The notes under the pieces: generated by a model
What the model was told of the DNA's origin: nothing
Database searches by the model: none
The model's input: the letters and a program-made list of their open reading frames with translations, nothing else
Shown here: piece by piece, positions 16,384 to 28,854 of the stretch
Layout: the number at the start of each line of letters is the position of its first letter
Numbering within the stretch: the first letter of the stretch is position 1
From: Marinobacter sp. LV10R510-11A
GTDB taxonomy: Bacteria; Pseudomonadota; Gammaproteobacteria; Pseudomonadales; Oleiphilaceae
Length of the DNA: 64,000 bases
Direction: 5' to 3'
Assembly (NCBI RefSeq): GCF_900215155.1
Contig: NZ_LT907980.1
Coordinates: 186,001-250,000, forward strand
Translations under genes and position numbers: made by a program

Positions 16384-16629
16384 ATGGATAACTCCTATAC
16401 CTATCTGACGACCGAAGAACTAGCTGGTCGTATTAAGTACGACAGTCGCACGATTCGCCAATGCCTGAAAGACACCGTACTGCTGGAGGGACGTCACTAC
16501 ATCAAGCCGTTTGGCCGCCGGAAAATCCTTTTTCTCTGGGAAGAGGTTGAGAAAGAAATGTTGACAGGGGCTCGTGCTCATGAAGCCTTGGCTATTCCGA
16601 TGGCCAGTGGGGTGGTTTGCCATGGGTAA
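16384..16629 (+). CDS. Excisionase-like small DNA-binding protein
   Basis: 81 residues. The segment YLTTEELAGRIKYDSRTIRQCL is a winged-helix/MerR-like DNA-recognition motif, followed by a basic wing (IKPFGRRKILFLWEEVEKEM). This is the usual form of a recombination directionality factor. AAGGA is 8 nt before the ATG. Its 3' end overlaps the integrase start (ATG at 16622), so the pair is co-translated. A purely regulatory role is possible. Confidence 0.75.
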   Translation: MDNSYTYLTTEELAGRIKYDSRTIRQCLKDTVLLEGRHYIKPFGRRKILFLWEEVEKEMLTGARAHEALAIPMASGVVCHG

Positions 16630-17824
16630 GGTAAGAACCCGCAAAGAGACCGGCAGGCTTTATTTAGACTTCATGTGTCAGGGCGTTCGCTGTCGCGAGC
16701 AAACTGCTTTGCCAGATACATCTGCAAATCGTAAGAGGGTTGAAGCGTTGCTTCAGAAAATTGAGGCAAAAATTCTGTTGGGGAACTTCGACTATGCAGA
16801 GCAGTTTCCGGATAGCGGTAATCTTAAAAAACTTAGGTTTGGAGATACCAGAGCGGCTGAAGACGCAGGGGAGAATCAGACTCCACTCTTCGTAGATTTT
16901 GCTGATCAATGGTTTGCGGAGTCCAAAGTCCAATGGCGCAACTCCCATACGCGCAACGTGGAGTCGATTCTTTCAAGCTCCTTGAAACCGTCCTTTAAGG
17001 GCAAGCGCGTAGGGGACGTCACAAAGGCAGACATCCTAGCCGCCCGCACCAAAATGGCCAAGCGCAAGGGTAGGGGAGCCAGTGGTCTGATGGCTCCCAA
17101 GACCATTAACAGCCATTTGACCATTCTGCGAATGATCCTGACCGAAGCGGCAGAGCGGTTTGAGTTTGATAACCCCTACCGGAATATCAAACCACTGAAG
17201 CAACAGAAAGTTCATATCGAGCCGTTCTCGCTGGCGGAGGTGGAACGCATCTGTAAGTACGTCCGAGAAGACTACCGCATCTATTATCTGTTGCGGTTCT
17301 ACACCGGCATGCGTACCGGCGAAATTGACGGTTTGAAGTGGGAGCACGTGGATTTTGCCAGGCAAGAAATTCTCGTACGGGAAACACTGATCAACGGTGA
17401 GACTGAGTACACCAAAACAGATGGCTCCCAACGTGAGGTTCCCATGTTTGGCCCAGTCTACAACGCGCTAAAAACTCAATACGAGGCAACAGGCAAACTG
17501 AGCAAGTTTGTGTTCTGTAATAACGAGGCTAAACCACTGGATCACAACAACGTGACCAAGCGGGTTTGGTACCCGCTCCTAGAAGTCTTGAAGTTGACGA
17601 AAAGGCGGCCGTATCAGACTCGCCACACCGCAGCCACGTTACTGCTGGCTTCCGGCGAAAACCCAGAATGGGTTGCCAGGGTTTTAGGCCACTCATCTAC
17701 CGAAATGCTGTTCAAAGTGTATTCACGCTATATCCCGAACGTCACTCGCATGGACGGTTCGGCATTCGAGCGCTTGCTGCAAGGTCGCGCCACCAATGGG
17801 GAGATGGACAATGAAACTGAATGA
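16622..17824 (+). CDS. Tyrosine recombinase / integrase
   Basis: 400 residues. An N-terminal arm-binding domain of the DUF3596 type (GKVRTRKETGRLYLDFMCQG) is followed by a core-binding SAM-like domain and a catalytic domain. Catalytic residues are Arg in YTGMRTGEIDGLKW, Arg in YQTRHTAATLL (Tyr replaces the usual His two residues before), His in RVLGHSSTEM and nucleophile Tyr in FKVYSRYIPN. It most likely integrated the island at the tRNA-fMet gene 850 bp upstream. The start is set at the ATG 16622 within the end of the excisionase gene. Confidence 0.92.
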   Translation: MGKVRTRKETGRLYLDFMCQGVRCREQTALPDTSANRKRVEALLQKIEAKILLGNFDYAEQFPDSGNLKKLRFGDTRAAEDAGENQTPLFVDFADQWFAESKVQWRNSHTRNVESILSSSLKPSFKGKRVGDVTKADILAARTKMAKRKGRGASGLMAPKTINSHLTILRMILTEAAERFEFDNPYRNIKPLKQQKVHIEPFSLAEVERICKYVREDYRIYYLLRFYTGMRTGEIDGLKWEHVDFARQEILVRETLINGETEYTKTDGSQREVPMFGPVYNALKTQYEATGKLSKFVFCNNEAKPLDHNNVTKRVWYPLLEVLKLTKRRPYQTRHTAATLLLASGENPEWVARVLGHSSTEMLFKVYSRYIPNVTRMDGSAFERLLQGRATNGEMDNETE

Positions 17825-18885: not shown

Positions 18886-19062
18886 CTATTCATGCATTCC
18901 CGGGCGGCAGTCATCGGTTTGAACGCATGGAAGAGTCCTTGGAAATGCTTCGGGAACATGCCGCCCGATAAGGAAGCCGGCTATGGCGCCAATAAGTGCA
19001 GGAATGGGCCCCATCATGCCGCCAACCAAACCGCCACCAAACATCAAAATGATGCTGTTCAT
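18886..19062 (-). CDS. Small glycine-zipper membrane protein, probably SOS-controlled
   Basis: 58 residues. The first 38 are strongly hydrophobic with regular glycines (MNSIILMFGGGLVGGMM, then GPIPALIGAIAGFLIGR), a glycine-zipper or helical-hairpin pattern as in small membrane toxins and holin-like peptides. The tail is hydrophilic with two Cys. About 100 bp upstream lies the left half of a LexA box (CTGTATATGCAG) that an IS1595 element has split from its right half. That spacing and the long leader recall SOS-induced small toxins such as TisB, but no homology is claimed. The ribosome site is weak (GGGGCGAG), so the gene needs experimental support. Confidence 0.5.
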   Translation of the reverse strand: MNSIILMFGGGLVGGMMGPIPALIGAIAGFLIGRHVPEAFPRTLPCVQTDDCRPGMHE

Positions 19063-19159
19063 AGAGCTCGCCCCGCGATACAGGTTCTTAGTTTAGAGTG
19101 AATGATCGTTTCCCGAGTCGCCTCTTGATTTGACCCGGTCACTGCCGTCATTCAGTACA

Positions 19160-19171
19160 CTGTATATGCAG
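19160..19171. promoter_or_regulatory. Left part of a LexA box split by an IS
   Basis: CTGT (19160-19163) plus the 8-bp duplication ATATGCAG. Removing the IS and one duplication joins it to ACAG at 20227-20230, giving CTGT-ATATGCAG-ACAG, a full CTG-N10-CAG SOS box. Confidence 0.8.
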
Positions 19172-19173
19172 GG

Positions 19174-20136
19174 CTATGTTGGTTTTCGTTGTTGGTTTGC
19201 ACTTATCGCAGTGCGCAGCCAAGCCTCTTCAGAAGGTTGTTCACTTTCAAACAGCCGTCGCCAAGCTAAGTAGCTCGGCAAATAAGCAGTCCCCACCCCA
19301 TGAAAGCGAGCCATCCAGCCCTTCAATCGACTGATATAACTATTTACGTTTTGGATGTGGTATTCCTTGCCGATCACCCTTTGATTGTCGAGCGTGATCA
19401 GTCGATGATGCGCAATACCATGGTCTTTCGAGAAGGTTTTATACCAACTGTGGCCGTCTGAACACAAAATCGAATCACAATTAATGATCGGCGTCAGAAA
19501 CTCATGAACCGTCGATTTGTTCAACGCCGGATCTACTAGGTCGCTAATATGACCGTTGCGATCTCTTGCAATAAGTACCGGAATTTTGTCCGCTTTATAC
19601 TTCCGATTACTCTGCCCACCACGCTTTCTGGGACTGCGATGCGTGAGCTTACGCTTACCTTTGCAGGACTCAGCAAAGAAGGTCTCATCCACTTCAATAA
19701 TGCCGGAAAGGTCATTTGCGTTTGCATGGGCGCTGGCGAGCAAAAAACGATGGCGCCACCGAAAAGCCGTCTTCAAATCAATACCTACCCTGGCCGCCGA
19801 CACCCGAAGGGTCAGGCTGTCTCGCATACACCGTAGATAATCAAACCACTTATCACGGTGGCGCAACCTAGCCAGTGGTGTTCGTGAAACAGCATTGAAA
19901 GTCTTGTGGCAGACCGGGTTCTGGCAGCGGTAGCGCTGCAGGCCGGCAGAATAGCCCCATTTTACGAAATATTGACTGCTGCAATGAGGGCAGGAGCGGT
20001 GCGAGGTGGCCGTTTCGAGCAATGCATGAGCCTGAGCATTGATTTGCCCAAGAAGCTGATCAGCAAGATATTTTTTGAGGTCAACGGGAAGGTTGGCTAA
20101 GGTTTTCTCAATAGCAGTAATGTTGGCTCGCTTCAT
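19174..20136 (-). CDS. IS1595-family transposase (copy A)
   Basis: 320 residues from the ATG at 20136. The N-terminal zinc ribbon (CPHCSSQYFVKWG ... RCQNPVCHKTF) precedes the ISXO2-like DDE domain. D is in IIEVDETFFAES, D in ILCSDGHSWYKT, and the third site lies around KEYHIQNVNSYISRLKGW. The protein appears intact and is roughly 70 percent like the copy at 26520-27482 by eye, so the two elements are relatives, not a recent duplication. Confidence 0.93.
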   Translation of the reverse strand: MKRANITAIEKTLANLPVDLKKYLADQLLGQINAQAHALLETATSHRSCPHCSSQYFVKWGYSAGLQRYRCQNPVCHKTFNAVSRTPLARLRHRDKWFDYLRCMRDSLTLRVSAARVGIDLKTAFRWRHRFLLASAHANANDLSGIIEVDETFFAESCKGKRKLTHRSPRKRGGQSNRKYKADKIPVLIARDRNGHISDLVDPALNKSTVHEFLTPIINCDSILCSDGHSWYKTFSKDHGIAHHRLITLDNQRVIGKEYHIQNVNSYISRLKGWMARFHGVGTAYLPSYLAWRRLFESEQPSEEAWLRTAISANQQRKPT

Positions 20137-20155
20137 GGTGCTCTCCACCGAAGGA

Positions 20156-20181
20156 CTGTTTATACAGTAGTATATACAGTA
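20156..20181 (-). repeat. LexA-like half-site cluster in the copy A transposase promoter
   Basis: On the plus strand CTGT-TTAT-ACAG-TA-GTATAT-ACAG-TA. Read toward the transposase this is a repeated TACTGTAT motif with one short inverted half-site. The spacing is not that of a canonical SOS box. Confidence 0.5.
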
Positions 20182-20218
20182 TTATTGAGCCGCACCAACA
20201 ACGAAAACCAACATAGCC

Positions 20219-20230
20219 ATATGCAGACAG
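20219..20230. promoter_or_regulatory. Right part of the LexA box split by IS copy A
   Basis: The duplication ATATGCAG (20219-20226) is followed by ACAG (20227-20230) and then TATTTTAT. See the left half at 19160-19171. Confidence 0.8.
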
Positions 20231-20476
20231 TATTTTATGTAAAGCAGGTGACCCCCACCCGCTTGGTCTTTACAAAATTTCAGTTGTCCTAAATGATCCC
20301 GTCAACCACCTTCGTTAGTGAAGGCAATAGGGCTCGTGAAATTCGCGGCGTTTGGCCTGGTTTCTACATAATTGTCGCCGGAGCGTACATGTCACTGGAA
20401 GCCGTTGCGGTAGGTGGGTTAGTCTTGCGATCAAAAGTCGAGCGTCCCGTCTTCGAGCCAGACAAGGAATCCTGTG

Positions 20477-21475
20477 ATGTCGAGCACCGCTGTCCGTTAT
20501 CTCACCATGCTACGAATGGTGCCTCGCTTTCCTAAGACCATTACCACAACTGAGCTGGCACAGCGTCTGGACGAGCAGGACTTCTCGGTCACGATGCGGT
20601 CGATTCAGCGGGACTTGGAAAAGCTGAGTGCGGATTTCCCACTTCTGGTGGACGAGCGCGCGAGACCTTTCCGTTGGTCATTCGACCGGGATGCCACCAT
20701 GGACATCATCCCGGCTCTGGATCTACCAGCGGCACTGACCTTTGAGCTGGCCAAGGCCTACCTCACACCCATGCTACCGCCCAGGGCTTTGTCGCATCTC
20801 CAACCTCACTTTAAAGAAGCGCACCGTACCTTGTCGCGAGAGAGTAACCCTCTGGGGCAATGGCCGAACCGCGTGCGTGTTATCAACCGAGGGTTAAGCG
20901 GGAGTCGCCCAGCCATAGATGCGGATGTTTTGGAAACTGTGACCGAAGCTCTGTTGCGTGAGTACCAATGCAAACTGACATACCAGGCACGCAACTGGTC
21001 GGAACCTGAGGATATTATCGTTCACCCTTTGGGTCTGGTCTTCCGGGATCCGAATGTGTATCTAATCGGAACCATTGAGGGCAGGGAAGGCGTACGCCAG
21101 CTGGTATTGCACCGAGCAACAACCGGGGAGTTGGTCGAACAGCCGGTAGAGCGCCCGGAAGACTTTGACTTGGACCTCTATATCCATTCGGGTGCCATGG
21201 GAATTCTCAAATCAAACGAGCCAGTATTTCTGAGGCTTCGCTGTGACAAGCCCGTTTTGAACCATCTGATCGAGTCACCCTTGGGTTTTGATCAGCTCAC
21301 TACTGAGATTGATAACGACACCTTTGAAATCTCGGTAACTGTAGACGATACCCAGGATCTGCGCTGGTGGTTGACGGCACAGGCAATTCACTGTGACATT
21401 TTAGAGCCTGGGTGGCTGCGAGATGAGATTGAAGCGGTTTTAGCCGAGGGGCTGGAGCGCGTCAGGAAAACCTGA
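20477..21475 (+). CDS. WYL-domain transcriptional regulator
   Basis: 332 residues. The N-terminal winged helix (TITTTELAQRLDEQDFSVTMRSIQRDLEKLS) is DeoR-like. The WYL domain follows (LTYQARNWSEPEDIIVHPLGLVFRDPNVYLIGTIEG), then a C-terminal WCX extension ending QDLRWWLTAQAIHCDILEPGWLRDEI. Such regulators (BrxR and CapW types) commonly repress phage-defence operons until a nucleic-acid or nucleotide signal appears. The ATG at 20477 has AAGGA upstream. It precedes a two-gene membrane operon and is the main candidate regulator for the shared inverted repeats at 30142, 42447 and 53216 (inference). Confidence 0.85.
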   Translation: MSSTAVRYLTMLRMVPRFPKTITTTELAQRLDEQDFSVTMRSIQRDLEKLSADFPLLVDERARPFRWSFDRDATMDIIPALDLPAALTFELAKAYLTPMLPPRALSHLQPHFKEAHRTLSRESNPLGQWPNRVRVINRGLSGSRPAIDADVLETVTEALLREYQCKLTYQARNWSEPEDIIVHPLGLVFRDPNVYLIGTIEGREGVRQLVLHRATTGELVEQPVERPEDFDLDLYIHSGAMGILKSNEPVFLRLRCDKPVLNHLIESPLGFDQLTTEIDNDTFEISVTVDDTQDLRWWLTAQAIHCDILEPGWLRDEIEAVLAEGLERVRKT

Positions 21476-21993
21476 GCGTGTTATAACAACTCGCATACCT
21501 CTCAATCTGATATGAATTTAGGCGAAATCACCAACTGGGCGGGTTGTGGTAACTCTGCGAGCACTCAATGACGCCATTTGCCTCAGCACAGCGGGCGTCT
21601 CTAATCCCGGAGCCATAAGACTGCTGAGAGCAGGCCAGGTAGCTGAGGAAGCTTTGGCCATTTCGTCGTACTGCGCAATGGTTGCATAGAGCTTTGAGCA
21701 AGCCATTGTTCTAGCGGTCAACCATGAATGGGTTCGACACCATGGAAGCGAGGCAGAACCCAAGTTTGTTGAAACGCTATATTTGTCCGAAAATCGGTTG
21801 TTGATGGTTTTTAGCCGTCGAATAGACGGGAACATCATGCGTTTTACAGCGGGTAAAATCTTGGCATTTTAAAGCGGATCAAGCATTATGATCAGGCTAT
21901 AAAAAGTTAATGAAACCTGACAGTTGGATATGTTTGTCTTCATAGTCAGGCATATAGCCCATATTTATTAAGCAGAGCATCGTGAGGAGAATG
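21476..21993. other. Gene-poor stretch with a possible decayed reading frame
   Basis: About 520 bp without a convincing gene. One plus-strand frame (about 21519-21870) gives protein-like sequence (GRVVVTLRALNDAICLSTAG, later EWVRHHGSEAEPKFVETLYL) but carries an internal TAG near 21678 and lacks a good start. The opposite-strand 106-codon frame (21518-21838) has no ribosome site and odd composition. The right part is AT-rich and should hold the promoter of the next gene; CCTGAC and GTCAGG at about 21919-21953 form a loose inverted repeat there. Confidence 0.4.
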
Positions 21994-22686
21994 ATGCAAA
22001 ATGTTGAGGTTGCGATCTTGCGCCGTCAGGTTCTAGATTGGCGTGACAAGTGGATGGAACAGATTCCTGTAGTGCTGGATCGTGAGCTTTCGTGTCTGTT
22101 AGCGCTACTCAATGCCCAGATTGATCAGATCTCTTTTAAAGAAACACTGTCAGCTGGAAAATACGCAGAGAAAAATATTCAGCCAATCTATAAGTCCTGG
22201 GTCGTAAGAGCGTCTCAGAATATCATGGATCTGGCTCATAAGGATCTGAAGTCGATAGATAGGCACATTCTTGACTACAACTCGAATCTTGAATATTGGA
22301 TTGCATCGGACACATCAGGTAAAAATGTCGTAAATCTGAGCATTGCTTCGGGGAGTGCTGGTGCGGCGGTATTGGGCATACCTGTGGTTCAAGCTTTCTC
22401 AACGGTGTCTGCTGGGTGGGGGCTTGGCCTGCTTGGTGTAACTGTGATCAGCTGGCCTGCTATATTGGGAGGTGCAGCTGTTCTAGGGACAATGGCTGTA
22501 TTCGGCGGCACCAAGTTAGCGAGACACAGAGAGAAGGCTATTCAGGACTTCAAGGGATCAGTAGAAGCTGGACTTCGGTCAGCTGTATTGGCAACTCATG
22601 GTACGAAATCTTCACTAACGATTAGTCTTCAAGAAAAAATAAGAACAGCGGCAGCCGCTTATATGGAGGAATTGAAGAGTGCTTAA
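21994..22686 (+). CDS. Unknown protein with central hydrophobic hairpin
   Basis: 230 residues from the ATG with GAGGAG just upstream. Residues 1-105 are helical and charged. Residues 110-175 form two to three hydrophobic, glycine-rich segments (SIASGSAGAAVLGIPVV, GLGLLGVTVISWPAILGGAAVLGTMAV). Residues 176-230 are again helical. Helix-membrane hairpin-helix is the layout of the stalk/paddle of dynamin-like proteins, but no GTPase motif is present. It overlaps the next gene by 8 bp. No family is recognised; with the WYL regulator upstream it may be the membrane part of a small defence system. Confidence 0.7.
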   Translation: MQNVEVAILRRQVLDWRDKWMEQIPVVLDRELSCLLALLNAQIDQISFKETLSAGKYAEKNIQPIYKSWVVRASQNIMDLAHKDLKSIDRHILDYNSNLEYWIASDTSGKNVVNLSIASGSAGAAVLGIPVVQAFSTVSAGWGLGLLGVTVISWPAILGGAAVLGTMAVFGGTKLARHREKAIQDFKGSVEAGLRSAVLATHGTKSSLTISLQEKIRTAAAAYMEELKSA

Positions 22687-23662
22687 TGAGTTTACCTTCA
22701 AAATTCCAGAATTTTTAATGCCAGGCATTGCTGATAGAAGCTTGACGAGATTTGGCTCAATTATAAAAAATACCCAGACCGGGAAAATTGTGGCACACGT
22801 GCAAGAAACTGGGCTGGGGCAGCAAATATTCAGCTCGTTGGCGTCTTCTCCCTTTTCACCCCTCGAAGCTGTTTCGTCGCTTGCCGCTAATGTGCAGTTA
22901 GGCCAGTTAAAAAGGATGGTTGAAGGTTTACAAGTCTTGCAATATGCCAATCTAGGCGTTGCGCTAACCGGTGTCGGTGTTAGTGTTGTTGGCTTTGCAG
23001 TGGTCAATAAGAAGCTCAAGAACATTCAATCTTCGATTGAAAGGGTTTCTAGTAAAATTGATCAACGCTTTGTCGAATTGTACGAACATCAGTTGCGCAG
23101 AGATTTTTACACCCTTCGTGGGGTTTTAGAACATATTGAGTCAGTAAGAAGGCAATCTAAACCAAAATCTGAACTTATGTCTGCAGGCTCCAGACTTACA
23201 GAGATCAGTTCTATAATGCGAGGTCAGTTGGAGTATCAGCTTCAACTACCGGCGTTTGATGAATATTTATTTACTCAGCTCACTCGGGCAATGTTGATGA
23301 GTGACAATGCGAGGGTTGAAGCGTATATCGTGGCTGAAGAATACGATTCTGCCCATCATGCTGCCACTTCGATTTCTGAATCTTATTGTAATTTGTTCGA
23401 TGACATAACACCGTTTGACCTGAAGCAAAAAAAGCGTTTGAGAAGTATTGATCTTCGTGAAAAAGCTAGAGAGACGGCAGAGAACATCACTGTGGGTGCT
23501 AGTCACCTTGTAGCCGGCTTGCGAGATATCACTGATTCAGCGTTTTGCAAACCGGTGCTTATAGAAGAGCTTGGGCGAAGAGGCATAGCTGGATCAGATT
23601 ACCTTTCTGCATTACGTAACGAAACCAAGGAGCCCATTGTTCTGTTACAGTTTTCAGATTAG
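22679..23662 (+). CDS. Unknown protein with transmembrane and coiled-coil segments
   Basis: 327 residues from a GTG start with GAGGAA 7 nt upstream. One hydrophobic segment near residue 95-113 (LGVALTGVGVSVVGFAVV) is followed by a coiled coil (NKKLKNIQSSIERVSSKIDQRFVEL) and a helical C-terminal domain of about 190 residues. No catalytic motif is visible. It is translationally coupled to the preceding gene. Both are AT-rich relative to the core segment. I can only say that it looks like a membrane-anchored partner of the upstream protein. Confidence 0.7.
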   Translation: MLNEFTFKIPEFLMPGIADRSLTRFGSIIKNTQTGKIVAHVQETGLGQQIFSSLASSPFSPLEAVSSLAANVQLGQLKRMVEGLQVLQYANLGVALTGVGVSVVGFAVVNKKLKNIQSSIERVSSKIDQRFVELYEHQLRRDFYTLRGVLEHIESVRRQSKPKSELMSAGSRLTEISSIMRGQLEYQLQLPAFDEYLFTQLTRAMLMSDNARVEAYIVAEEYDSAHHAATSISESYCNLFDDITPFDLKQKKRLRSIDLREKARETAENITVGASHLVAGLRDITDSAFCKPVLIEELGRRGIAGSDYLSALRNETKEPIVLLQFSD

Positions 23663-23847
23663 CAGTGTTGGATATTGATCCCACAGATTGTTTCTATTCC
23701 GGACTCCTGAGTTCAAGTAATAGGTGCAGCACCACCTTTTTTGAGAGTGCTTCTAGCTGCTTATAATAAGCATAATGTTTGAAAAGTAGTTTGCTCATAT
23801 ATTCGTGTTTACAACTACCCAGCGCTCGAGACAAGCGCCTTCCCACC

Positions 23848-24513
23848 CTAATCTCCAGGCAGCAGTTCCGCTTTCCCTGTCAGTTTCAAATCCTTCGGGC
23901 CGTGCACTGGCTCACACACCAATGGCGCGGGAATATGCGTCTGCATCAGACTCTGAAACGCATCCATTTGATGGAAATCGGGATCCAGCCAAAGATCAAA
24001 ATCATCAGGCCTTAGCATCAGCGGGATACTTTTGGCATGGATGTGGCTGAACCTAGGATGCGGTGGAAGCGTGATTACGGTGAAAGAATTTACTTGCTCA
24101 TCCCCAAAGTGCCACGACTGCCAGAGGCCTGCCAGGGCTGTAGCTTCATTCTGCGGATGAATATTGTAGACCTGCTTGCCTTGCCATTCATGGAAGGCAC
24201 TTACCGGTACGATGCAACGTTTTGAGGGATATATTTTCTTCCAGAGCGCGCTGCTGGTCAGTCGATCACTTCGGGCATTGAAGGTGTGAAATTTCGGATT
24301 GGGTCGGTAACTGTGGCCTTCAGGTCTGGGTTCAATCAGCAAAGACCAAATACCTGGAAGCAGATACCGGTCATCGGCCGCTTGAATCACGAACTCACCA
24401 GTGCCTCCGGGTGGCACGTTGTGCTGGAACCTGGGTGTTATGCTAGGCAGGCCCAGTTGTTCCATCAGTATTCTGATTTCAGGTGAGTCTGTAACGTTGT
24501 ATCGGCCGCACAT
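23848..24513 (-). CDS. SOS response-associated peptidase (SRAP/HMCES family)
   Basis: 221 residues. The catalytic Cys2 follows Met1 (MCGRYNVTDS), and the family motifs FNARSDRL, RCIVPVSAFHEWQ and ALAGLWQSW, with a catalytic His in PHPRFSHIHAKSIPLML, are present. These proteins crosslink to abasic sites in single-stranded DNA and shield them, like YedK and HMCES. It lies 81 bp after umuC on the same strand, so it belongs to an SOS operon umuD-umuC-SRAP whose LexA box is now split by an IS. Confidence 0.93.
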   Translation of the reverse strand: MCGRYNVTDSPEIRILMEQLGLPSITPRFQHNVPPGGTGEFVIQAADDRYLLPGIWSLLIEPRPEGHSYRPNPKFHTFNARSDRLTSSALWKKIYPSKRCIVPVSAFHEWQGKQVYNIHPQNEATALAGLWQSWHFGDEQVNSFTVITLPPHPRFSHIHAKSIPLMLRPDDFDLWLDPDFHQMDAFQSLMQTHIPAPLVCEPVHGPKDLKLTGKAELLPGD

Positions 24514-24594
24514 AGAATCCTCTCAATCAAACACTCAAATCATTCTGATACTTGCCGGCTGTGAGAAACACTCAGCGCATCCATAGAGTGTAGA

Positions 24595-25881
24595 TCAGCG
24601 GACTGTAGGCAGCTCGGACCAGGCGGTGGTGTAGGCCGGCGATAAATGTCCCCTTCGCATTGCATAAACCGCAGGTCCCGCTTCTCTAGCCATGTAGACC
24701 GTTGCCTGGGATTTCCGGTTGATCTCATCCATCACTGTCATCAGGCGTTCTGATCTGGCACTGTCCGGTGTATTGGTTGCCACTGACTCAAACAGGTCGT
24801 CCTGCAACCCCGTTTCATCCACTAATTCACTCAGCATTACCCCAGCTTTCGCATACTCGTACCCTTCATGATACATAGGCCGAAGAAGCCTGAGAGCCTG
24901 CTGCACGATCACTCTGGAGTCCTGGGACGCATTGATCAAACGAACACTCGCACTTCTTGAGTATTGTGGTGCAGTAGTCTTGAAGGGGTTCGTTCTAATA
25001 AACACCATCAGCTCGCCGGCGTATTGATGACCGCTCCGAAGCTTTTGGGTGGTTCTTACTGCAAAGTGTGCCACGGCCTCTTCCAGATTCGCCAGAGACT
25101 GGATGGGCTGACCAAAGGAGCGGGAGCACATAATCTGTTTTTTAGGTGACGGTGCATCGTCCCACGGCAGACAGGGCACACCGTTTAATTCCCGGGCAGT
25201 ACGTTCTAGCACAACAGAGAAGCGTTTTCGTAAGGTACCGAAATCGGTGTCGGCCAATTGTAAAGCCGTGACAATGTCCATGGCATGAAGCTTCGCTGAG
25301 ATCTTGCGGCCTACGCCCCAAACTTCTTCCACGGGCACTCGGGCCAAAAGCCTTCTTTGTCTCGCTGGATCAGTGAGGTCTACGACACCCTTGGTTGCTG
25401 GGTATTTCTTGGCGGCGTAATTGGCGAGCTTCGCCAGAGTTCTGGTGGGTGCAATGCCAACACACACTGGAAGGCCCACGTTCCGGTACACGGTGTGTTT
25501 TATCTGCCTGCCAAAGTCCTCAAGGGACACCAACCGGTCAATACCGGTGACATCCAGGAAAGCCTCATCAATCGAATACACATCCACTCTGGGTGCCAGC
25601 GCTTCCAGCGTTATCATCACCCGATGGCTCAAGTCGCCATAGAGAGTGTAGTTGGAGGAAAACAGCTGAATTCCATGCTGTCGAATCTCCTGTTTGATGT
25701 GGTGTACTGGTACACCCATTTTGATACCCAGGTCTTTGGATTCCTTCGAGCGTGCAACGACACAACCGTCGTTGTTGGACAGTACGACGACCGGTGTATG
25801 CCGCAAATCGGGCCGAAACAGCTTCTCGCAGGAAGCATAGAAGTTGTTGCAATCGACCAATGCAAAGACTGGTTGTTTCAT
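24595..25881 (-). CDS. umuC: DNA polymerase V catalytic subunit
   Basis: 428 residues, full length for UmuC. This Y-family translesion polymerase needs UmuD' and RecA. FALVDCNNFYASCEKLFRPDL carries the first metal Asp; VYSIDEAFLDVT has the second Asp/Glu pair. GVGRKISAKLHAM is the helix-hairpin-helix region, and the C-terminal DUF4113-like segment ends YTTAWSELPTVR. The reading frame is intact although its partner umuD is frameshifted. Expression may be altered because the operon LexA box is interrupted. Confidence 0.95.
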   Translation of the reverse strand: MKQPVFALVDCNNFYASCEKLFRPDLRHTPVVVLSNNDGCVVARSKESKDLGIKMGVPVHHIKQEIRQHGIQLFSSNYTLYGDLSHRVMITLEALAPRVDVYSIDEAFLDVTGIDRLVSLEDFGRQIKHTVYRNVGLPVCVGIAPTRTLAKLANYAAKKYPATKGVVDLTDPARQRRLLARVPVEEVWGVGRKISAKLHAMDIVTALQLADTDFGTLRKRFSVVLERTARELNGVPCLPWDDAPSPKKQIMCSRSFGQPIQSLANLEEAVAHFAVRTTQKLRSGHQYAGELMVFIRTNPFKTTAPQYSRSASVRLINASQDSRVIVQQALRLLRPMYHEGYEYAKAGVMLSELVDETGLQDDLFESVATNTPDSARSERLMTVMDEINRKSQATVYMAREAGPAVYAMRRGHLSPAYTTAWSELPTVR

Positions 25882-25948
25882 CCCGCCTTAGCCTGTTTCT
25901 GATAAAACCCACGTCGTACCGTGACGAAGGAAGCCGGGCTGTGACTGA

Positions 25949-26399
25949 TCATGACTTACCTCCGCGCTTGAGTGATCGAACCACGTTAGTGACTACACCA
26001 AACACCTCCATCGTCATGTCGCCTTCAATGGTAATGGGATGGTAGAGGGGATTTCTGGGCAGCAGTCGAACAGGAGGAGGTGTCAGGTGTAACTGCTTCA
26101 CCGTCATCTCTGATTCCAGGCTGGCGATGATGATGTCGCCGTGTGTGGCTCGTAACGACCGGTCAACTACCAGCACATCGTCTGGAAAAATTCCCGCTTC
26201 GATCATGGACTCTCCCTGAACCCGCACAAAGAAGGTGGCTGCCGGATGCTGGATGCTGGATGCACAGTTCGTTCAGGTCGAGGGTCTTCTCGACGTAATC
26301 TTCAGCCGGAGATGGGAAACCAGCCGACACGCGCTCCAAAAAAAGAGGAATACCCAAACGGGAGAAAGATTGGTAGTCACCAAGAAATGTGCAGGGCAT
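25949..26399 (-). pseudogene. umuD: umuD, frameshifted by a 7-bp tandem duplication
   Basis: From the ATG at 26399 (AAGGTG ribosome site) the product reads VSAGFPSPAEDYVEK, with the Ala-Gly self-cleavage site, up to LNELCIQHP. It then leaves frame at CTGGATG repeated twice (26249-26262). The other frame carries the rest of UmuD: FFVRVQGESMIEAGIFPDD with the catalytic Ser and SEMTVKQLHL with the Lys. Removing one 7-bp unit restores a continuous CIQHPAATFFVRVQGES. All catalytic residues survive, so the lesion looks recent or could be reversible by slippage. Confidence 0.88.
26249..26262. repeat. 7-bp tandem duplication that breaks umuD
   Basis: CTGGATG twice in a row, preceded by a near copy (GCCGGATG). 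The extra unit shifts the frame by one. Confidence 0.9.
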
Positions 26400-26414
26400 A
26401 CTTCACCTTAAATA

Positions 26415-26426
26415 CTGTTTATATGT
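26415..26426. promoter_or_regulatory. Left part of the umu LexA box split by an IS
   Basis: TACTGT (CTGT at 26415-26418) plus the duplication TTATATGT. It joins to ACAGTA at 27493-27498 when the IS is removed, giving a near-perfect TACTGT-TTATATGT-ACAGTA box 16 bp before the umuD start. Confidence 0.92.
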
Positions 26427-26463
26427 GGCTATGTTGGTATCTGCTGTTGGCGTATTTATACAT

Positions 26464-26499
26464 TACTGTATAAAATACTGTATAAAATACTGTATATCC
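26464..26499 (+). repeat. Three 12-bp iterons in the copy B transposase promoter
   Basis: TACTGTATAAAA, TACTGTATAAAA, TACTGTATATCC in direct tandem, 20 bp before the transposase ATG. TACTGTAT equals half of the LexA consensus TACTGTATATATATACAGTA. Confidence 0.85.
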
Positions 26500-26519
26500 A
26501 GTTTTCCCTGGAGTACGTC

Positions 26520-27482
26520 ATGAAGCGAACAGACATCAACGCCATTGAACAGTTACTGTCCCGCCTCCCTGTTGAGCTCAAAAAATACTTCGCCAATCAA
26601 CTTCTTGGGCAAATTAACGCTCAGGCTGACACCCTAATCGAAACGGCTAGACCTCATCCTTTATGCCCTCACTGCGGCAATGAGCACCCAGTCAAATGGG
26701 GTCGTTCTGGTGGCTTACAGCGATATCGATGCCACAATCCAGTGTGCCTCAAAACATTTAACACCCTCACCGGTACGCCCCTAGCCAAACTGCATCACCG
26801 TGATAAGTGGTTTGCGTATCTAGGCTGCATGCTGGATAGCTTAACGCTACGCATCACGGCGAAGCGCTTGGGCATCGATCTAAAAACCGCATTTCGCTGG
26901 CGGCACCGGTTTTTAGCCTCTGCCGCCAAAACCAATGCCAACGCCTTATCGGGGATCATTGAAGTCGATGAAACGTGGTTTCTTGAATCTTGTAAGGGAA
27001 AGCGTCGCCTCACGCATCGGATGACACGGAAGCGCGGTGGGCAAGGCAGCAAAAAGAAGAAAGCGGATAAGGTTCAAGTAGTTATTGCTCGTGATCGCAA
27101 CGGCCATATCAGTGATCTGGTAGGTCCGACGCTCAGTAAATCAGCTGTCCACGCATTTCTGGAGCCGATCATAGACCATGATTCGATTTTGTGTTCGGAC
27201 GGGCACAGCTGGTATAAAACCTTCTCTGCCGAGCATGACATCGCGCATCATCGACTGATCACACTCGATCATCAGCGAGTGATTGGCAAGGAATACCACA
27301 TTCAGAACGTCAACGCTTATATCAGCCGACTGAAGGGTTGGATTGCGCGCTTCCGTGGCGTGGGTACAGCATATTTGCCTAACTACCTAGCTTGGCGGCG
27401 GCTTTTTGAAAACGGAGATTCATCAGAAGAGGCATGGCTTCGTTCTGCGATAGGAATAAAACAACAGCAGATACCAACATAG
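26520..27482 (+). CDS. IS1595-family transposase (copy B)
   Basis: 320 residues. The zinc ribbon CPHCGNEHPVKWG ... RCHNPVCLKTF and the DDE domain with IIEVDETWFLES, ILCSDGHSWYKT and KEYHIQNVNAYISRLKGW match copy A. It appears intact. Its stop codon lies in the right terminal repeat, as in copy A. The promoter region contains three LexA-like half-sites, so the element may itself respond to SOS (inference). Confidence 0.94.
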   Translation: MKRTDINAIEQLLSRLPVELKKYFANQLLGQINAQADTLIETARPHPLCPHCGNEHPVKWGRSGGLQRYRCHNPVCLKTFNTLTGTPLAKLHHRDKWFAYLGCMLDSLTLRITAKRLGIDLKTAFRWRHRFLASAAKTNANALSGIIEVDETWFLESCKGKRRLTHRMTRKRGGQGSKKKKADKVQVVIARDRNGHISDLVGPTLSKSAVHAFLEPIIDHDSILCSDGHSWYKTFSAEHDIAHHRLITLDHQRVIGKEYHIQNVNAYISRLKGWIARFRGVGTAYLPNYLAWRRLFENGDSSEEAWLRSAIGIKQQQIPT

Positions 27483-27484
27483 CC

Positions 27485-27498
27485 TTATATGTACAGTA
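27485..27498. promoter_or_regulatory. Right part of the umu LexA box
   Basis: The duplication TTATATGT (27485-27492) is followed by ACAGTA. See the left half at 26415-26426. Confidence 0.9.
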
Positions 27499-27636
27499 TT
27501 CTGGTGTGATTTTCCCCTTGGGTCAATTCAGTAACGTGAGAAACTTGGCATATTATCTGAGATTGGTAGGACCACATCTAGGAGAGCTGAATGCCGCTTG
27601 TCAGCATATCGGATTTTTTGGATTCCTCTAACCCGG

Positions 27637-28854
27637 CTACCAAGGCTCAACAGCCCTGAAAATGCCGGTCTTGGTCATATCCCGTCGCAGGTCAAACGCA
27701 GCGAGTACTTCCACCGGGTCCACCGCTTCCAGATTACCAAAATGGATCCGGCCCCAGGCTTCACGGCTTACCTTCACGCTATAGAGATACTTGTCCTCAA
27801 CTCCGCCGGTAGCGGCGTTAGATACCTGAGTGAATGCCGACAAAATCACCCGCTCAACTGAAGGCGCACAAGAAAAGCACTCACCCATTAGCCGAACACC
27901 CATACCGTGAACATGGGCCATGTAGAGCTTACGAGAGGCCGTATCTGAAAGCTCGTTAACAGAAACGCCAACACCTCGTTTGTACGTGCGCAGCTCGGTC
28001 GTGGGAAAGTCTTCAATTTCCGGTAAATCCACATCCAGCATCAGTGCTTTGCCGTCGTCGGACAGCTCGAACGAGAGTTCGGTATCCTGGGGCCAGTCAA
28101 TATCCTGCATGTGATCGTCCAGCACAGACTCCATTGCTGCGACATCCCCAAGCCGCGCGTTCCTGTAGAGGTTTTCACGTTCAGACTCGACCTGCTCAAA
28201 GGAGCGCTTCTCGTTTTCCCATTGCTCGCGCAGTTGCCGATACTGGTTACGTTTCTGTTCATTGGAATCGGAAAAAGCTCTGCGCCGGGCAGGGCACAAG
28301 TACGCCAGCCAATCCGGTTTTCGTAACCCTGGCGGTTTGGGCTCGGTGATCTCAAATGGCGTGGGCACAAACGTGGGGAAAGTATGGGGCGGTGGTGTAC
28401 CCAGATGAATATCACTGATCTGTGCCATCATCCGGTTATGGTTATCCACATGCTGCTGTAGCGTATTTTCTAGATCTTCCCGAGCGTAGGTTTTAGCTAC
28501 CTCAATGGCCTCATCGCCAAGATCATCACCGTTGGCATCCAGAATGGTGATGTCACCGGTTTTCGTATTCAGCTGCACCTGAGCAATCTTTTCGGCAATT
28601 GGTGGCAGCGCCGGCGCCGGCTTCGTCGACCGGGCGTTTCGGCTTCCGGCTCTGCCAGCCGCAGTATTTGGCTTTGAAAGTTTTTCACGATAAGAGAAAC
28701 CGGTGCCTGGAATGCCCGCATTACCGTAAAGCCCATTGCGCCCTAAAGTGACATTGGCGCCGCGCATTCCCGCCGAAACGCTCACCCCGCGCTTGCCGAG
28801 GTTGAGGCGAAACCCAGGGAAAATCGACACTGTTCTGCGAAATCTAAAAGCCAT
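27637..28854 (-). CDS. DUF4236-domain protein
   Basis: 405 residues. The N-terminus (FRFRRTVSIFPGFRLNLGKRG, then VSVSAGMRGANVTLGRNGLYGNAGIPGTGFSY) is the glycine-rich beta repeat of DUF4236. The middle (residues 90-260) is helical and charged, and the C-terminal 150 residues are a mixed domain rich in VHG and Val/Asp motifs. The family has no assigned biochemical role but is frequent in mobile and defence regions. CAAGG lies 8 nt before the ATG. It is 38 bp downstream of the PcfJ-like gene on the same strand, probably one operon. Confidence 0.8.
   Translation of the reverse strand: MAFRFRRTVSIFPGFRLNLGKRGVSVSAGMRGANVTLGRNGLYGNAGIPGTGFSYREKLSKPNTAAGRAGSRNARSTKPAPALPPIAEKIAQVQLNTKTGDITILDANGDDLGDEAIEVAKTYAREDLENTLQQHVDNHNRMMAQISDIHLGTPPPHTFPTFVPTPFEITEPKPPGLRKPDWLAYLCPARRRAFSDSNEQKRNQYRQLREQWENEKRSFEQVESERENLYRNARLGDVAAMESVLDDHMQDIDWPQDTELSFELSDDGKALMLDVDLPEIEDFPTTELRTYKRGVGVSVNELSDTASRKLYMAHVHGMGVRLMGECFSCAPSVERVILSAFTQVSNAATGGVEDKYLYSVKVSREAWGRIHFGNLEAVDPVEVLAAFDLRRDMTKTGIFRAVEPW

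Follow-up and report, generated by a model that had tools for sequence, protein, structure and literature searches.

How does a small insertion sequence (IS) come to lie, twice within one stretch of a genome, exactly in the centre of a regulatory operator? The question is raised by 64,000 base pairs (bp) of Marinobacter sp. LV10R510-11A (contig NZ_LT907980.1, positions 186,001 to 250,000; this whole stretch is called the window here, and coordinates refer to it unless stated otherwise), in which two elements of the IS1595 family, copies A and B, each split a LexA-type (SOS) box. An alignment of 37 insertions of these elements and their relatives suggests that in a group of IS1595-family elements, comprising ISMsa1-like elements and relatives, the transposase itself probably selects the sequence TACTGT-N8-ACAGTA as its target.

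Two IS1595-family elements in split LexA-type boxes

Copy A is an ISMsa1-like element of 1047 bp (19172..20218, minus strand) with the terminal repeats GGCTATGTTGGTTTTC. It is preceded by CTGT (19160..19163) and the 8-bp target duplication ATATGCAG (19164..19171) and followed by the second duplication (20219..20226) and ACAG (20227..20230). Copy B, likewise ISMsa1-like and 1058 bp long (26427..27484, plus strand), lies between CTGT (26415..26418) and TTATATGT (26419..26426) on the left and TTATATGT (27485..27492) and ACAG (27493..27496) on the right, and its box is the putative umuDC operator. Excision in silico of the element and one duplication yields CTGT-ATATGCAG-ACAG for box A and CTGT-TTATATGT-ACAG for box B, both with all eight fixed bases of the palindrome CTGT-N8-ACAG. 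Direct reading of the sequence thus confirms the preliminary description of this DNA, which had placed both elements in the centre of such a box with N8 equal to the duplication.

Both copies show the traits of the IS1595 family, an exact 8-bp duplication, a single transposase gene and ends that start with GG. The terminal repeats match at 16 of 16 bases in either copy and begin with GGCTATGTTGG in both. The transposases (19174..20148, minus strand, in copy A; 26520..27482, plus strand, in copy B) match the DDE_Tnp_IS1595 family PF12762 with 64.7 and 61.2 bits (cutoff 27), NF033547 with 195.4 and 189.7 bits (cutoff 75) and the N-terminal zinc-finger model NF050000 with 47.9 and 43.3 bits (cutoff 28), the last as a zinc ribbon. 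According to excerpts of one account, such an N-terminal zinc finger is present in every IS1595 group except IS1016 (PMC8101967). Since the copies are only 70.5% identical in DNA and 74% in transposase protein, they are, judged by these identities, distinct elements that were inserted in separate events, and their independence as claimed earlier is upheld.

A common target motif in 37 insertions

Is the position of the two copies peculiar to the window or common to their relatives? Copies were delimited by terminal repeats and duplications and counted if the duplication agrees in at least 7 of 8 bp, whereby 35 of the 42 rows tabulated for the box-targeting groups qualify. Two later copies bring the number to 37 insertions with 33 distinct target sequences, as four rows share one transposon box and two rows one umuD box. 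With the duplication numbered 0 to 7, the left flank negatively and the right flank from 8, the left half-site has C(-4) in 31, T(-3) in 37, G(-2) in 36 and T(-1) in 27 of the 37 insertions, and the right half-site A(8) in 32, C(9) in 35, A(10) in 37 and G(11) in 37. The duplications are 79% A+T, and the majority base over 20 positions spells TACTGTATATATATACAGTA, which we take to be identical with the E. coli LexA consensus at 20 of 20 positions. Hence the motif is kept in the alignment of related copies that the preliminary description had proposed, and copies devoid of flanks of the CTGT/ACAG type, named there as possible counterexamples, did not turn up among the counted insertions, all of which have T(-3), A(10) and G(11). 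What has to be modified is the notion of fixed CTGT and ACAG flanks: the core persists across copies in degenerate form, CTG and CAG being found together in 28 of 37 targets and strict CTGT...ACAG in 18. Weak LexA-like sites such as CTGA...ACAG and CTGG...TCAG are also used, indicating that recognition is looser than a perfect operator would require.

Single cases illustrate the precision of this choice. One umuD box has been entered at the same 8 bp and in the same orientation by two elements (L020, L147) that are just 81.6% identical in DNA. Where one genome has two elements identical over their full length (L054/L055, L121/L131, L119/L130), each occupies a target site of its own; all six copies keep T(-3), A(10) and G(11), and four also have CTG/CAG complete. 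Moreover, a genome first searched once the motif was fixed (G1138) contains two copies, both with 8-bp duplications inside CTG...CAG, at AGCTGG[ATGCCCAT]ACAGTT and TACTGT[TTATATAT]ACAGTA. In one genome two copies with equal match scores (L192, L200) were observed about 500 bp apart, each within its own box.

Chance as the cause of the motif is excluded by the background, register shifts and a sister-group control, as the preliminary description had anticipated in calling a random match very unlikely. CTG-N10-CAG occurs 47 times in 123,520 flank positions (3.8e-4 per position), compared with which 26 of 35 targets with CTG/CAG correspond to log10 p = -81, and 22 of 31 distinct target sequences to log10 p = -68, both with rows treated as independent. 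No shift of the register by 1–6 bp to either side produced a match. In sister IS1595 groups, of which 26 copies were examined and 18 had a verifiable duplication, CTG together with CAG was found in none of the 18 and CAG alone in one (L077), and these sister copies stem in part from the same genomes or the same host family (L125, L128, L129). In a protein tree of 62 rows chosen from the loci, which carries a long-branch warning for outer rows, 31 of 31 box-targeting rows fall within one fork of 37 rows (support 95/94), and the tree demands 6 label changes versus a mean of 21.1 after shuffling, with none of 500 shuffles as low. The same fork also holds L078, with CTGT on its readable side, and L017 and L159, whose label is unclear.

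Several observations weigh against an operator-specific transposase as the general rule. A complete CTG or CAG is missing from 9 of the 37 targets; one complete copy with intact ends (L017) has neither duplication nor box, and a further copy (L062) has half a box only. No gene that could be linked to SOS lies beside 22 of the 37 targets. The fork of box-targeting rows also contains L151 and L160, with one insertion each and no box, and L077, flanked by ATGG...GCAG; supported branches force at least five of the six label changes with the labels as given, so that box targeting is, on this tree, clustered yet not confined to one clean clade. One gain followed by losses and more than one gain would both fit. 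Finally, every named host of a box-targeting copy belongs to the Gammaproteobacteria, and host range therefore does not separate a role of host LexA from one of the transposase.

Sampling of relatives

The insertions were collected by searches of different depth. Within the genus, 14 of 100 genomes match at E 1e-3 and 11 of 124 at E 1e-60; among Halomonadaceae, 22 of 275 match at E 1e-50; at the level of the order, 7 of 390 (alignment query) and 5 of 390 (L135 transposase query) match at E 1e-60; at the level of the class, 2 of 369 match at E 1e-50, the source genome being one of them; and 15 of 16 genomes reached from loci match at E 1e-30. Genome contigs contributed 32 loci, and of 38 plasmid records 19 regions from 18 records were examined. 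In viral contigs alignment A1 as query yielded no confirmed relative, and a scan with the L010 transposase found two (L135, L136) that both fit the motif and ten more distant loci that are not counted. Phage records gave only two distant Streptococcus matches at the limit of E 1e-20, and nothing in E. coli genomes matched copy B.

The counts rest on copies whose ends were findable. One site recovered repeatedly (L030/L031/L045-L047/L215, the same as L019) was counted once, and two insertions with ends on different contigs of one genome (L056+L058, L057+L059) were paired by identical 8 bp. Eight complete or nearly complete copies in which the duplication agrees in fewer than 7 of 8 bp remain outside the 37. 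In four of them (L021, L083, L161, L120) half-boxes flank both sides despite the unmatched duplication, a pattern that recombination between copies in two separate boxes would be expected to produce; the others are L062 and L017, mentioned above, L076, with a half-box on one side only, and L122, with a duplication of 5/8 and the flanks CTAT and CCAG. One-ended, contig-edge or broken copies were also left uncounted (L022/L065/L105/L196, L063/L195, L037/L072/L205, L068, L069, L078, L104, L112, L116, L118, L123, L132), of which L063/L195 and L037/L072/L205 have ACAG and L078 CTGT on the readable side. Limits could not be defined for L159, which adjoins an integron integrase.

Genes at the target sites

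Which genes have their boxes split? Family searches of selected neighbour genes place 10 of the 37 insertions at umuD (L007, which is copy B, L018, L020, L051, L052, L053, L060, here as second gene, L121, L131, L147); eight of these genes score above the UmuD model cut-off, that of L147 is annotated umuD, and that of L007 consists of two pieces below the cut-off. One insertion (L058+L056) precedes a LexA-family gene (112.6 bits, cut-off 110.95). Four lie at genes known or suspected to be SOS-linked: L057+L059 at a radical SAM gene of the PA0069 type, L011 at a CLCA_X gene with part of umuC after it, L127 at an integron integrase that is truncated and matches below cut-off, and L130 at a weak LexA/UmuD-like gene, also below cut-off. 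PA0069 in Pseudomonas and integron integrases are LexA-controlled. Five insertions are in the leader of another transposon, and 17 lie elsewhere with no SOS gene assigned, among them both G1138 copies and the sites of L049, L135, L136 and L048, which precede dndB, a phage integrase, an Ogr-type gene and a tyrosine recombinase, respectively. The earlier idea of an element that targets SOS operators consequently stands for 11 of 37 insertions, at umuD or a LexA-type gene, and perhaps for the four suspected ones; the remaining targets are not recognised SOS operators. At the dndB site (L049, 2419-3607 of that locus) the element splits a LexA-type box ahead of a gene of DNA phosphorothioation.

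In the window, box B lies 16 bp ahead of the start of umuD (26399, minus strand) with umuC (24595..25881, minus strand, profile matches) next behind umuD, which agrees with its description as the umuDC operator. This umuD (25949..26399, minus strand) is frame-broken: its two pieces, 25949-26227 and 26163-26399, overlap and are read in different frames; the other umuD genes scanned (n=8) are all open. Inspection of the genes neighbouring box A recognised none of SOS type.

The source genome and its own SOS boxes

The source genome of 4.44 megabases (Mb) appears to use for its SOS boxes the very motif that the elements target, because CTGT-N8-ACAG precedes lexA, recN, imuA and a second umuDC. 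Unoccupied WACTGTN8ACAGTW occurs at four sites, compared with none in a backward control; three of them lie before the second umuDC, imuA and recN, and the fourth adjoins no recognised SOS gene. In addition, CTGTATAAACAAACAG is found about 90 bp upstream of the LexA-matching part of an open frame (247.8 bits). Within the 64 kilobases (kb) of the window no unsplit CTGT-N8-ACAG was found.

Four ISMsa1-like copies with both ends, one with a frame-broken transposase, are present in this genome next to five copies of a second IS1595 element that is 46-47% identical to the ISMsa1-like one and has the ends GGCGCTGTTGTGC; one further IS1595 fragment has no definable limits, and there are shorter fragments including L014/L015. 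Each of the nine delimited copies is enclosed by an 8-bp duplication, outside which stand CTGT at one end and ACAG at the other (CCAG in one copy), and six of the nine occupied sites conform to the strict WACTGTN8ACAGTW pattern. Six of ten strict boxes in the genome are thereby occupied, four of them inside copies of one transposon. This other transposon, whose transposase has an IS1-type zinc ribbon and whose leader hairpin includes a LexA-type box, is present in five copies (contig C1, at about 185.7, 497, 609, 2085 and 4238 kb), four alike and one about half identical, and all five carry an IS1595 element in the leader (L006, L009, L010, L012, L013), for which a strong hairpin is predicted in the one sequence folded. 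One of the four alike copies has its leader box split by an ISMsa1-like element, and the others have theirs split by the second element, which occurs there in both orientations.

How could a transposase choose an operator?

Of the possible explanations, direct reading of the box by the transposase appears likeliest, ahead of guidance by LexA, as several targets would be poor LexA sites. Staggered by 8 bp, the cuts in the two strands would fall precisely where the half-sites border on the central 8 bp, so that these would turn into the duplication and one half-site would be left on each side of the element. The motif is symmetric about this 8-bp-spaced cut, as it would be if each half-site were read by one transposase subunit of a symmetric complex. 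The motif being the same as the LexA operator, insertions would accumulate in SOS promoters, above all that of umuDC, and with its box divided between the two sides of the element the gene would presumably escape LexA control. The motif is conserved, lies between genes and is widespread in Gammaproteobacteria, which may be why the specificity evolved.

A structural model of the transposase predicts an RNase-H-like DDE catalytic core, N-terminal helices at 2-18 and 22-48, a strand-rich region at the zinc-ribbon match and helices at 98-140. The zinc-ribbon, helical and catalytic alignment columns are common to sister transposases, and no extra targeting domain was seen when box-targeting and sister transposases were aligned. 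A sequence search for a relative of solved structure gave no clear hit (best E 0.066).

Alternatively, the transposase may be recruited by LexA, or by DNA whose shape LexA has altered, in which case the motif would be that of LexA. The match of the two consensus sequences across 20 bp, in which the outer TA and the AT-alternating middle also agree, would follow, as would the ten insertions at umuD and the one at a LexA-type gene. However, a bound LexA dimer would be expected to cover the phosphates to be cut, the poor LexA sites (L050, L054, L055, L119) are difficult to reconcile with it, and sister groups in the same host family use other targets, indicating that the specificity belongs at least to the element. 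We consider guidance by LexA unlikely, and equally so an extended version, in which the SOS system would serve as both targeting and timing device: LexA would mark the operators, or its damage-induced cleavage would expose them, so that elements would transpose into SOS promoters while the cell responds to damage and would rewire translesion repair by umuDC in the lineage carrying them.

Another possibility is that AT-rich palindromes, cruciforms or promoter -10 regions are preferred in general and that LexA boxes are hit incidentally. This would agree with the A+T content of the duplications and with the five targets in the hairpin-prone leader of the other transposon, but the near-invariant G(-2), C(9) and G(11) are not general to AT palindromes and render this explanation very improbable. 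Least credible of all is near-random insertion with later retention of copies in SOS operators for altered repair-gene expression, since despite the umuD insertions that it would explain, it is contradicted by a register exact to the base also at sites without an SOS gene, by the motif at sites where no such gene is recognised, by the fit of the identical same-genome pairs and by the absence of the motif from the 18 sister-group insertions.

SOS control of the transposase gene itself was also considered and is not supported: CTG-N10-CAG is absent from 9 of 12 elements examined and in the other three (L006, L147, L127) lies within the coding part. A different feature was observed just ahead of the transposase start, where in 22 of 23 ISMsa1-like leaders CTGTATA is directly repeated, in two or three units at intervals of 12 bp (26464-26501 in copy B); L051 has one, and they were not seen in the other box-targeting groups. 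These repeats resemble LexA half-sites and form no CTG-N10-CAG box.

Relation to known elements

The closest named element found is ISMsa1 (IS1595; the name is from PLSDB plasmid annotation), whose transposase is 84% identical to that of copy A and which shares the first 12 bases of the ends and the 8-bp duplication. Its annotated copy in the Marinobacter salarius plasmid pHL2708Z5 likewise lies just ahead of umuD-umuC, and no description of its target preference was found in the literature searched. ISApl4, of the IS1016 group of the IS1595 family, also makes 8-bp duplications, preferably in A/T-rich sequence; it differs in its shorter transposase gene of 654 bp and in that an A/T preference, and no operator or palindrome, is reported in excerpts of the publication (PMC12561309). 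The sister elements annotated as ISAma5 and ISOar1 share the transposase family and the 8-bp duplication and have targets without the LexA motif; for another sister, ISAchd1 (L148), no duplication was found.

Loose target choice is usual among insertion sequences. Mobile elements with defined targets, to which the box-targeting IS1595 elements can be compared, include Tn7, which uses a dedicated target protein (TnsD), Tn10, which reads another palindromic consensus, and group IIC introns, which use terminators; to our knowledge, none of these uses LexA operators. No IS that targets LexA operators was described in the literature searched, which was largely without subscription papers, so that an account may exist elsewhere. 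By its sequence the targeting of SOS boxes would be a new variant within the known IS1595 family. A small single-gene element would have a target of 16-20 bp whose consensus is a widespread regulatory operator of Gammaproteobacteria, and its splitting would repeatedly detach LexA control from error-prone polymerase genes, a natural route to altered control of mutation rate. Moreover, the transposase is compact, consists of one protein and has a defined preference that can be tested directly, and comparison with the sister groups, which have other targets, would allow the determinant of target choice to be mapped.

Other features of the window and of sister groups

Rfam at gathering scores gave no match in 19000-28000 of the window. 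Close to copy A, a phage-type tyrosine integrase (16574-17824) suggests a mobile island. In a sister IS1595 group with the ends GGCTATGTCCC or GGCTATGTACCC (L067, L079, L084, L128, L129) the duplication, judged by eye, is mostly a T-run after a GC-rich hairpin, as if intrinsic terminators were targeted; L088 of the same group is without this pattern.

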